Assembly: GCF_011058165.1 (NCBI RefSeq)
Contig: NZ_JAALEG010000034.1
Coordinates: 1 to 53,725, forward strand
DNA length: 53,725 nucleotides
Source of the DNA: Rhodococcus aetherivorans
GTDB lineage: Bacteria > Actinomycetota > Actinomycetes > Mycobacteriales > Mycobacteriaceae
Reading direction: 5' to 3'
In this document: in pieces, positions 28,850 to 34,148 of the stretch
How the letters are laid out: each line of letters begins with the position of its first letter
Position numbering within the stretch: position 1 is the stretch's first letter
Position numbers and translations under genes: made by a program
The notes under the pieces: generated by a model
Told to the model about the DNA's origin: nothing
Database searches by the model: none
What the model saw: only the letters and a program-made list of their open reading frames with translations

Positions 28850-28902
28850 TTGACACCCCCCGAGAAACGAACGTATATTCACCTCAAGTGAATGAGCATT
28901 CA
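28850..28902 (+). promoter_or_regulatory. Promoter P1 with two 14-bp YGAA-N6-TTCA boxes
   Basis: A -35 TTGACA (28850-28855) and -10 TATATT (28874-28879) are 18 bp apart. Box 1, CGAACGTATATTCA (28868-28881), covers the -10. Box 2, TGAATGAGCATTCA (28889-28902), is a perfect palindrome. Their centres are 21 bp apart, two helical turns. A repressor bound here would block RNA polymerase. Box 2 is identical to the one in the transporter promoter at 30362. Confidence 0.8.
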
Positions 28903-28977
28903 TTTTGCTCGTGTGCTTTTCGAAATCCGACGCACCCCGCCCCGAAGGCCCCGGTGGTGCCCCAGCAAGGAGTCGAC

Positions 28978-30129
28978 ATGGATCTGGCGTTGACGGAGGA
29001 GCAGCAGAGTTTCCGGCAACTCGCACGCGAGTTCCTCGACAAGGAGGTGGTCCCGCACCGGGCCGCATGGGACCGCGCCGAATCGGTGGACATCTCGATC
29101 GTGCCCAAGCTCGCCGAGATCGGGTTCTTCGGGCTGACCATCCCCGAGGAGTACGGCGGCCTCGGCGGCGACTACATCACCTACTGCCTCGGCATGGAGG
29201 AACTCGGCCGCGCCGACTCCGCTGTGCGCGGCATCGTGTCCGTCTCGATGGGCTTGGTGGGCAAGGTGATTCTGTCCCACGGCACCGAGGAGCAGAAGCA
29301 CGAGTGGCTGCCACGCATCGCTTCGGGTGAGGCGCTCGCATGCTTCGGTCTCACCGAACCCGACAACGGCTCCGACCCCGGACACCTGAAGACCCGCGCG
29401 GTGCGCGACGGCGACCACTACATCATCAACGGGTCGAAGATCTTCATCACCAACGGGACCTGGGCGAACCTGTGCCTGGTCTTCGCCCGCACCGGCGGTC
29501 CCGGCCCGAAGGGCGTGGCCGCCTTCCTCGTTCCCACCGACACCCCGGGCTTCGAAGCCCGGGAGATCCACGGCAAGCTCGGCCTGCGCGGCCAGGCCAC
29601 CGCCGAGCTGTACTTCACCGACATGAAGGTGCCCGCGAGCGCGCTGCTCGGCGAGGAGGGCCAAGGCTTCTCGATCGCCATGCACTCGCTGGACAAGGGC
29701 CGGGTCTCGGTCGGCGCCGGCTGCGTCGGCATCATCCAGGGCTGCCTCGAGGCCGCCGTCGACTACGCGACGAACCGCAAGCAGTTCGACCGGCCCATCG
29801 CCTCGTACCAGCTGATCCAGGACCTGATCGCGGACATGTCCGTCGACGCCGACGCCGGCCGCCTGCTGACCTGGCGGGCAGCCGACCTCATCGAGCGCGG
29901 AGAACCGTTCGGCACCGCCGCATCCAAGGCGAAGTACTTCTGCAGCGAGGCTGCGGTGCGAGCCGCCAACAACGCGATCCAGCTCTTCGGCGGGTACGGC
30001 TACGTCGACGAGTACCCCGTCGCCAAGTACATGCGCGACGCCCGCGTGATGACCCTGTACGAGGGCACCAGCCAGATCCAGAAGCTGCTCATCGGCCGCG
30101 CCGAGACCGGCATCAGCGCCTTCCTGTAG
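28978..30129 (+). CDS. Acyl-CoA dehydrogenase, candidate cyclohexanecarboxyl-CoA dehydrogenase
   Basis: This 383-residue flavoenzyme starts at ATG 28978 behind AAGGAG. The usual three-domain ACAD fold is visible (ACFGLTEPDNGSDPG, KIFITNGTWANLCLVFA, RKQFDRPIASYQL, QLFGGYGYVDEYPVAKYMRDARVM). The catalytic base is the C-terminal E362 in LYEGTSQ, as in short-chain/butyryl-CoA types. It is transcribed alone from P1, which shares its operators with the transporter and ring-opening operon. That makes it the best candidate for the first oxidation of cyclohexanecarboxyl-CoA (AliB role), though a general acyl-CoA substrate cannot be excluded. Confidence 0.85.
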   Translation: MDLALTEEQQSFRQLAREFLDKEVVPHRAAWDRAESVDISIVPKLAEIGFFGLTIPEEYGGLGGDYITYCLGMEELGRADSAVRGIVSVSMGLVGKVILSHGTEEQKHEWLPRIASGEALACFGLTEPDNGSDPGHLKTRAVRDGDHYIINGSKIFITNGTWANLCLVFARTGGPGPKGVAAFLVPTDTPGFEAREIHGKLGLRGQATAELYFTDMKVPASALLGEEGQGFSIAMHSLDKGRVSVGAGCVGIIQGCLEAAVDYATNRKQFDRPIASYQLIQDLIADMSVDADAGRLLTWRAADLIERGEPFGTAASKAKYFCSEAAVRAANNAIQLFGGYGYVDEYPVAKYMRDARVMTLYEGTSQIQKLLIGRAETGISAFL

Positions 30130-30213
30130 ACCGTCCAGGACGGCGGGCCCGGGATCGCCGGCGGAGCCGGAGGGGGGGTCGTCGCCACACCGGCGGGTAG
30201 TCAGGCGGTAGTA

Positions 30214-30265
30214 GATCACGCACAACGCTCGGCTGGGGTCTCCCAGTCGAGCGTTGTGCGTGATC
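30214..30265. terminator. Long hairpin terminator after the acyl-CoA dehydrogenase gene
   Basis: Perfect 18-bp outer arms (beginning GATCACGCACAACGCTCG at 30214, closing 30248-30265) enclose a further CTGGG...CCCAG inner stem. It lies 85 bp past the stop. No gene is seen in 30130-30468, which holds this hairpin and the next promoter. Confidence 0.85.
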
Positions 30266-32758: not shown

Positions 32759-32857
32759 CTGCTGGTCCTCTTCTCCAGGAATCGGGTCATGCGTTTCTAC
32801 CTGTCCACGGCCCCGTACCGCACCGCCCGGGCGGGATCGTCGAGATGATGTGGTCGC

Positions 32858-34036
32858 TCACAGCGCCTCCACCGCCAGCGACACGCCCTGGCCGACACCG
32901 ACGCACAGGGTGGCCAGGCCCCGCGCCGCGCCCTCGCGTTCCATGCGGCCGAGCAGGGTGACGAGGATGCGCGCCCCGGACGAGCCGAGCGGGTGACCGA
33001 GCGCGATGGCGCCGCCGTCCGCGTTGACGAGGTCCTCGTCCAGGCCGAGTTCGCGGATGACGCCGAGCGACTGGGCGGCGAAGGCCTCGTTGAGCTCGAT
33101 CGCGCCGATGCCGTCGAGGGTCCAGCCGGTGCGGTCGAGCAGCTTGCGGGTGGCGGGGACCGGGCCGAGGCCCATGATGTGCGGGGCGAGCGCCGCCGAG
33201 GCGCTGCCGACGATCCGGGCGCGCGGCGTCAGCCCGTGCCGGCGCACCGCGTCGGCGCCGGCGAGCACCAGCGCGGACGCGCCGTCGGACAGCGACGACG
33301 ACGAGCCGGCGGTGACGATGCCGCCGGCCCGGAACACCGGCTTCAGGCGGGCGAGTTTCTCCTCGTCGGTCCCGCGCCGCGGGCCCTCGTCCACGTCGAC
33401 GACGCCGTCGCGCACCGGCACCGGGACGATCTCCTTCTCGAACCGGCCGGCGTCGATGGCGGCGAGAGCGCGCCGGTGGCTGCGGACCGCGAACGCGTCG
33501 CTCGCCTCTCGGGTGATGCCGTGCAGGGCCGCGACCTCCTCGGCCGTCTCGCCCATCGACAGGGTGGTCGTGTCGTCGAAGCGCGGGTTGGTGAACCGCC
33601 AGCCGATGGCGGTGTCGAAGACGGCGCCGGGCTTGGCCCAGGGTGTGCCGGGCTTGCTCATCACCCACGGCGCCCGGGTCATCGACTCGACCCCGCCGGC
33701 GACGACGATGTCGGCCTCCCCGGACCGGATGGCCTGGGCCCCGGAGGCGACAGCGGTGAGCCCGCTCGCGCACAGGCGGTTGACGGTGTACCCGGGGACG
33801 GTCTGCGGCAGGCCGGCGAGCAGCACCGCCATGCGGGCGACGTTGCGGTTGTCCTCGCCGGCCTGGTTGGTGGCGCCGAGGATCACCTCGTCGATCGCGT
33901 CGGCCGGGACGCCGCTGCGCGCGACGGCCTCGCCGACGACGAGTGCGGCCAGGTCGTCGGGCCGCACCGGGGCGAGCGCGCCGCCGTAGCGGCCCTGCGG
34001 TGTGCGGACTCCGTCGACGACGTAGACGTCGATCAT
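32858..34036 (-). CDS. Acetyl-CoA acyltransferase (thiolase)
   Basis: This 392-residue thiolase starts at ATG 34036 with AGGGAGA upstream. Catalytic residues are clear: C89 (VNRLCASGLTAV), H347 (GGAIALGHPLGSSGAR) and C378 (LCVGVGQG), with the NEAFAAQ motif between. It starts MIDVYVVDGVRTPQGRYGGAL and is of the PcaF/PaaJ/FadA degradative type. Together with the hydroxyacyl-CoA dehydrogenase it would cleave 3-oxopimeloyl-CoA to glutaryl-CoA and acetyl-CoA, or acetoacetyl-CoA to two acetyl-CoA. It is divergent from the ring-opening operon and shares its box-containing promoter region. Confidence 0.92.
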   Translation of the reverse strand: MIDVYVVDGVRTPQGRYGGALAPVRPDDLAALVVGEAVARSGVPADAIDEVILGATNQAGEDNRNVARMAVLLAGLPQTVPGYTVNRLCASGLTAVASGAQAIRSGEADIVVAGGVESMTRAPWVMSKPGTPWAKPGAVFDTAIGWRFTNPRFDDTTTLSMGETAEEVAALHGITREASDAFAVRSHRRALAAIDAGRFEKEIVPVPVRDGVVDVDEGPRRGTDEEKLARLKPVFRAGGIVTAGSSSSLSDGASALVLAGADAVRRHGLTPRARIVGSASAALAPHIMGLGPVPATRKLLDRTGWTLDGIGAIELNEAFAAQSLGVIRELGLDEDLVNADGGAIALGHPLGSSGARILVTLLGRMEREGAARGLATLCVGVGQGVSLAVEAL

Positions 34037-34075
34037 CCGTAGATCTCCCTTCCGAAACCGGGGGCCGTGTGACCC

Positions 34076-34148
34076 TTGACACCCTCCGGTAGTGAATGTA
34101 CGTTCATAGTTAGTGAAGCACAATTCATCACTCATGAACAGAACTTCA
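34076..34148 (+). promoter_or_regulatory. Promoter P3 with three phased 14-bp boxes (divergent control region)
   Basis: TTGACA (34076-34081) and TACGTT (34099-34104, 17-bp spacer) precede the ring-opening operon. Three boxes with TGAA-N6-TTCA are present: TGAATGTACGTTCA (34093-34106, covering the -10), TGAAGCACAATTCA (34114-34127) and TGAACAGAACTTCA (34135-34148). All centres are exactly 21 bp apart. The region also lies upstream of the divergent thiolase gene and could control both directions. Confidence 0.8.

Follow-up and report, generated by a model that had tools for sequence, protein, structure and literature searches.

The DNA analyzed here is a 53,725-nt stretch of the genome of Rhodococcus aetherivorans (contig NZ_JAALEG010000034.1, positions 1 to 53,725; hereafter the window), and its elements of interest are seven 14-bp boxes of the form YGAA-N6-TTCA, all on the forward strand, in three promoters (P1, P2 and P3) of a gene cluster for the breakdown of ring acids of the cyclohexanecarboxylate type. 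A preliminary description had reported such boxes with centers exactly 21 bp apart within each promoter, and all seven were found again. In P1, box 1 (CGAACGTATATTCA, 28868..28881) holds the -10 hexamer, and box 2 (TGAATGAGCATTCA, 28889..28902) lies 21 bp downstream of it. P2 box 1 (30362..30375) is identical in its letters to P1 box 2 and lies downstream of the P2 -10, with P2 box 2 (CGAATTTTTGTTCA, 30383..30396) a further 21 bp downstream. P3 carries three boxes: box 1 (TGAATGTACGTTCA, 34093..34106), which holds the -10 and on the minus strand reads TACATT, a possible -10 of the divergent thiolase gene, followed by box 2 (TGAAGCACAATTCA, 34114..34127) and box 3 (TGAACAGAACTTCA, 34135..34148).

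Genes and promoters of the cluster

Behind P1 lies a gene for an acyl-CoA dehydrogenase of 383 amino acids (28978..30129, forward strand), whose orthologues, 90-92% identical, adjoin badI in five loci of the R. opacus/koreensis type (L011, L012, L132, L133 and L134). P2 precedes a major facilitator superfamily transporter (30469..31833, forward), for which the nearest NCBIfam subfamily, aromatic acid/H+ symport, scored below its cut-off. The P3 operon, entirely on the forward strand, begins with a badI-like crotonase that is a candidate ring-opening hydrolase (34184..34978) and a badH-like candidate 2-hydroxycyclohexanecarboxyl-CoA dehydrogenase (35015..35746). The curated cut-offs for BadI and BadH of the bad-ali cyclohexanecarboxylate pathway were not reached by these two proteins (TIGR03210, 321 bits against 468; TIGR03206, the best model for the second protein, 245 bits against 431), and we therefore call the pathway bad/ali-like. 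For the crotonase, MenB models scored slightly above the badI model, likewise under cut-off. An aliA-like acyl-CoA ligase (35776..37446), two acyl-CoA dehydrogenases (37443..38633 and 38647..39795), the candidate repressor TetR1 (39827..40489), an enoyl-CoA hydratase (40492..41244) and a second candidate repressor, TetR2 (41355..42017), follow. Both candidates belong to the TetR family, with the DNA-binding domain TetR_N (PF00440) and the TetR-type C-terminal domain TetR_C_24 (PF17932) above the Pfam cut-offs. Divergent from P3, on the reverse strand, are an acetyl-CoA C-acyltransferase (thiolase; 32858..34036, TIGR01930 above cut-off) and, behind it, a 3-hydroxyacyl-CoA dehydrogenase (31910..32758).

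The order of the P3 operon is that of the chcpca cluster of R. aetherivorans BCP1, which the available text of the BCP1 paper (PMC5906575) gives as badI, badH, aliA, two dehydrogenases, tetR-like 1, enoyl-CoA hydratase and tetR-like 2. There the counterpart of the badI-like crotonase is given as a badI homologue, and the two acyl-CoA dehydrogenases of our operon take the glutaryl-CoA dehydrogenase and aliB positions, respectively. The BCP1 catabolic genes were induced ~70-290 fold by cyclohexanecarboxylate and 180-800 fold by cyclopentanecarboxylate (PMC5906575). The word operator is absent from the available portion of that paper; the present analysis contributes P1, P2 and the sites with their phasing.

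The TTGACA -35 hexamer that had been described for all three promoters was confirmed at 28850, 30317 and 34076. In P1 (28850..28879, forward) TTGACA at 28850-28855 is separated by an 18-bp spacer from TATATT at 28874-28879, with 11/12 consensus matches, and in P3 (34076..34104, forward) TTGACA at 34076-34081 is followed after 17 bp by TACGTT at 34099-34104. Each of these -10 hexamers lies inside the first box, again as described. P2 (30317..30346, forward; TTGACA at 30317-30322, an 18-bp spacer, TACCGT at 30341-30346) has a weak -10, and both of its boxes lie 3' of this -10-like hexamer. P1 alone among the three passed a generic promoter scan. The P3 boxes are situated 70-112 bp upstream of the divergent thiolase start, and the box at 34093 contains the -10 of a weak reverse promoter (TTGTGC-17-TACATT). 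It is plausible that the thiolase and hydroxyacyl-CoA dehydrogenase pair is also controlled by the P3 boxes. A long inverted repeat (arm GATCACGCACAACGCTCG), perhaps a terminator, is found at 30211-30264 between the P1 gene and P2.

The pattern YGAAN6TTCA matched the window 13 times, both strands counted, where 100 shuffles averaged 0.74, and the window scan gave a single match outside the seven boxes, at 7591. Sites of at least 15 bits numbered 7 (mean 0.19 and maximum 1 in 100 Markov-resampled windows) and matrix-scored pairs at 21 bp numbered 4 (0 in the resampled windows), counts that are circular for the window, since the scoring matrix was derived from its own boxes.

Spacing and promoter register in related loci

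We fetched 80 badI loci, of which 36 (L006-L041) were analyzed in detail; the remaining 44 (L042-L085), with badI 55-69% identical and titles from other phyla, were used in the spacing histogram only. Group A consists of 24 loci with the TetR clade of this cluster, L007 and L037 (no tetR match in the stretch) being counted among them, and group B of 12 loci, 8 with another TetR clade and 4 without a TetR match. In L037 and in L090 the badI and badH matches are split into pieces, probably as a result of assembly errors.

Across the 80 loci, boxes paired within 70 bp were 21 bp apart fifteen times and 4, 17 and 42 bp apart once each, while the reversed pattern gave no pair. Scored with the matrix derived from the window, the best and the second box of the 24 group A promoters were separated by 21 bp in 18, by 22 bp in 3 and by another distance in 3. 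Among these last, three boxes of L021 follow one another at 21 bp, yet the second-best box of the locus is 210 bp off; L007 carries TGAN8TCA at 21 bp, and in L017 the sole second box at this distance is degenerate. We also scored every offset in 23 loci, L015 being excluded as a near copy of L014. Offset 21 had a mean score of 11.25 and exceeded 8 bits in 18/23 loci, whereas the other offsets, with 42 set aside, had a mean of -11.7 (standard deviation 3.1) and a maximum of -2.0. In 52 family genomes that encode relatives of the cluster TetR proteins, 31 distinct pairs at 21 bp were counted by eye, compared with 14 for the rest of the 14-44 bp range combined. Several relatives have a third box in the 21-bp register. 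In the promoters of the P1 orthologues of R. opacus type the boxes stand 42 bp apart in 5/5 cases, with a weak midway box (at least 6 bits) in 3/5.

A tandem duplication of a 21-bp unit would produce repeats equal in length and step, as observed here, and the spacing would then come from descent and not from selection. The linkers, however, differ between repeats: in eight promoters with three boxes they share 0-4 of 7 bases. Between the 21 promoters chosen for a 21-bp pair the linkers are 38% identical, as opposed to 77% and 67% for the boxes. These identities indicate that the 21-bp spacing has been held while the linkers drift, and we consider duplication a highly improbable origin of the pairs.

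In 19/23 group A promoters the distance from the end of a TTGACN hexamer to box 1 is 11-13 bp, which places the -10 within the box. The motif TAnnnT occupied box positions 7-12 in 17/19 first boxes and in 0/19 at +21 (Fisher 1.2e-8, relatedness ignored); in L013, L040 and L041 the +21 box is one base off register, and read in register it likewise lacks TAnnnT. In L020, L026 and P2 of the window, the boxes lie 3' of a -10-like hexamer instead. Both layouts suit steric repression.

TetR dimers might bind independently, with the 21-bp distance kept not for contact between the proteins but only since the -10 has to fall within box 1 and the start region within box 2. Such an explanation draws on the fixed register of the first box with the -10 in most relatives, and it is at ease with the three relatives at 22 bp. 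But the boxes of P2, L020 and L026 are off the -10 and yet still 21 bp apart, and third boxes keep the 21-bp step too. We therefore judge independent binding to be unlikely, though by no means negligible. Cooperative binding of neighboring dimers, the reading that we prefer, plausibly fits the two-turn spacing.

Co-occurrence of the phased pair and the cluster TetR

The preliminary description had proposed that the dehydrogenase, the transporter and the ring-opening operon form a single regulon, and suggested a scan of the whole genome for phased pairs. In that scan (6.43 Mb), only the window's four pairs were found at up to 1 mismatch, and at 2 mismatches one further, unrelated site appeared. 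The strong palindrome TGAAYN4RTTCA occurs 8 times in the genome, 3 of them within the window (28889, 30362 and 34093); the other five were considered as further targets and dropped, as they have no partner at +/-21 bp. Many phased pairs outside related genes would, according to the preliminary description, have refuted its proposal; the scan came out in its favor, and the single regulon is well supported.

Within the genus, 12/18 genomes have a badI at least 92% identical, and the pair (up to 1 mismatch) was present in 11 of these 12, with G016 as the exception, and in 0/6 of the others. It abuts badI in 14/14 loci sampled from 10 other positive genus genomes, and the P1 and P2 pairs are additionally present in the R. 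aetherivorans genome itself. Of 301 genomes of the family, 37 contained the strict pair, 52 a relative of the cluster TetR proteins at E <=1e-40, 31 both and 243 neither (Fisher p 1.7e-22, relatedness ignored). Where both were present, the pair was located at most 7 kb from the TetR gene in 28/31 genomes, the places being compared by eye. In the class, a stricter TGAA pair occurred in 2 of 394 genomes, both of them carriers of the TetR. The phased box layout thus recurs in other actinobacteria. It could be argued that short AT-rich palindromes simply cluster by chance in promoters, since AT-rich promoters raise the local frequency of such words. Against this, the reversed-pattern control had no match in the genome itself or elsewhere in the genus, 2 in the 301 family genomes and 0 in the 394 genomes of the class, and together with the shuffles these controls leave chance with almost no credibility.

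TetR1 and TetR2 are 75% identical and differ by one residue in the recognition region (VSVGLLYKYF and VSVGLIYKYF). The R. gordoniae locus L006 has a single TetR, which is closer to TetR2 (86%) than to TetR1 (74%). The residues SVGL-Y-Y are invariant in 23 TetR sequences, in which those other than TetR2 are 38-86% identical to it. In group B the picture changes. The TetR protein found in 8/12 of its badI loci is 21-25% identical and reads VTKGSLYYYF, TGAC-type boxes stand 19 bp apart in 9/12, and in 10/12 a box holds the -35 (TTGACT or TTGACC), 17 bp from a loosely defined -10-like hexamer. A change of TetR clade therefore goes together with a change of box type and of spacing. The 19-bp TGAC-type boxes lie upstream of badI in L018, L019, L022, L024, L025, L028, L032, L034 and L038, where the second box holds the -35 and a divergent TetR of the other clade is present in 8/9; they are a second phased design in badI clusters of other actinobacteria.

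Arrays with further spacings were also seen. TGAAT-type palindromes 15 bp apart occur around 1501-1550 in L129, L130 and L131 and, among the matches listed, in several g23 genomes, and in L129 and L130 a TetR-like match (~30-34% identity) adjoins them. Also among the matches listed are 22-bp pairs in the g10 genomes G089, G055, G073, G170, G104 and G197, with several additional palindromic pairs of the TGAACGGGARTTCA type at 43 bp in G104 and G197, and TGAAG-type pairs ~30-31 bp apart in the g29 genomes G164, G216, G296 and G245; in G164, G216 and G296 there are several of these per genome, resembling a repeat element.

We asked whether a global TetR of the fatty-acid type, encoded elsewhere, might own the sites in place of TetR1 and TetR2. 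Two points speak for such a regulator: TetR1 and TetR2 are distant relatives of FadR-like proteins, and similar boxes serve other systems in the family. The strict pairs, however, track the cluster TetR and directly precede its gene in six loci (L020, L026, L029, L031, L033 and L039), the boxes are different where badI is accompanied by another TetR clade, and with up to 1 mismatch allowed the genome contains just four phased pairs. Ownership by a global regulator appears improbable to us on these grounds, and the cluster TetR, as suggested in the preliminary description, is well supported as the likely binder of the boxes. The same description likened the half-sites to those of FadR-type TetR proteins. 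A distant likeness to the TetR-type FadR of Bacillus, Thermus and Sulfolobus stands (24-25% identity to Bacillus FadR), but both proteins fall far below the cut-off of the NCBIfam FadR family (NF053878; 51 and 62 bits for TetR1 and TetR2 against 200), and membership in that family was rejected.

A predicted repression switch for ring-acid catabolism

We propose that the boxes are, in all likelihood, operators of the cluster TetR repressor or repressors, that side-by-side dimers repress the bad/ali-like regulon, and that a CoA ester of the pathway probably releases them. Binding, repression, cooperation between dimers, a CoA-ester ligand and the part of each paralogue are suggested by geometry, gene order and likeness to known regulators. 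TetR1 and/or TetR2 would bind as one dimer per 14-bp palindrome, and with the two-turn spacing two or three dimers would line up along the same face of the helix, where they would cover the -10 (P1 and P3) or the transcript start (P2). Expression of the acyl-CoA dehydrogenase, of the acid transporter and of the badI-badH-ligase-dehydrogenase-tetR operon would thereby be shut off, perhaps along with that of the divergent thiolase/dehydrogenase pair. Once a ring acid enters the cell and its CoA ester is formed, an intermediate would bind TetR and the arrays would be released. A TGAN8TCA box was not found in the 150 bp before either tetR gene; lying in the P3 operon without such a box of their own, tetR1 and tetR2 would be autorepressed.

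Known regulators offer partial parallels. The AlphaFold model of TetR2 (mean predicted local distance difference test score 92) has PfmR, KstR2, AibR (isovaleryl-CoA) and FadR among its fold neighbors, with 3him, an entry of no stated function, as the top row by Z score. These four are CoA-ester-binding TetR proteins. BkaR, a further TetR regulator in this fold neighborhood along with KstR2 and AibR, acts as a repressor of CoA-ester catabolism, and its promoter contains two palindromes (PMC3920632). Its operator, GTTA-N-T-N4-A-N-TAAC, is unlike the boxes here, and a fixed 21-bp array is unmentioned in the available text (PMC3920632). Several palindromes or dimers per promoter are thus already known for TetR repressors, from BkaR (PMC3920632) and, in the source material available, from Sulfolobus FadR and QacR. 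In Sulfolobus FadR the second dimer is thought, according to the same material, to bind in a QacR-like manner, overlapping and on the other side of the helix, whereas the sites described here are non-overlapping and their two-turn spacing predicts a single face. The bad-ali genes of R. palustris and Aromatoleum CIB are controlled by BadR (PMC9795900, available part), which shares with our proposal a repressor of the bad-ali catabolic operon that is relieved by a pathway CoA ester, although BadR belongs to the MarR family and not to TetR. Control by BadR itself was rejected for the present cluster, as its operator CAAN4TTG is absent from P1-P3 and has 2 chance-level matches in the window (3155 and 46936). 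The available text of the same paper notes that Gram-positive bad-ali clusters carry a TetR-like gene and gives no operator for it (PMC9795900).

Several observations weigh against the proposed switch. The available text on BCP1 reports that its tetR genes rise on cyclohexanecarboxylate only and not on cyclopentanecarboxylate (PMC5906575), a pattern that a plain one-operon model leaves unexplained; internal promoters, transcript processing or paralogue-specific control may therefore exist. The step is 22 bp in L013, L040 and L041, and several second boxes of group A are degenerate. No strict pair was found in 21/52 TetR-positive family genomes, and 6/37 pair-positive genomes were without a TetR at E 1e-40. 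In two of these six (G137 and G194) a more distant TetR lies ~1 kb from the pair, three (G222, G250 and G294) contain a different system with 15-bp spacing, and the sixth is G283. The pair is ~1 Mb from the TetR gene in G160 and on a different contig in G009 and G281. When any spacing (gap 0-30) is allowed, at least 86/301 family genomes have box pairs, with one match per strand in a single genome, G286, for the reversed control; such boxes therefore have roles in other systems as well. Finally, P2 was found in this genome only, and no transporter match of at least 45% was present in the other loci examined.

The proposal can be carried further, although we offer this extension tentatively and doubt that it holds as a whole. 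TetR1 and TetR2 could form mixed 21-bp arrays on one face, which would let one promoter answer to CoA esters of both six- and five-membered ring acids. The TetR clades that took over the badI locus could each have evolved a lattice of their own, with 21-bp steps placed on the -10 in one clade and 19-bp steps placed on the -35 in the other, the spacing being heritable together with the repressor.

Among the matches listed from the open-licence literature, with most subscription journals outside the search, no operator for these TetR proteins was found. The boxes give the actinobacterial cyclohexanecarboxylate-type regulon a defined operator from which its members can be predicted in other genomes. 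They also provide a natural test case of whether TetR dimers cooperate through strict helical phasing. Naphthenic acids, which are ring acids of this kind, are described in the available text of the BCP1 paper as toxic compounds of hydrocarbon deposits (PMC5906575), and the switch is for this reason a candidate sensor part. For the organism itself, the sequence evidence points to the seven-box array as very probably an on/off switch for the genes that break down cyclohexane-type acids.

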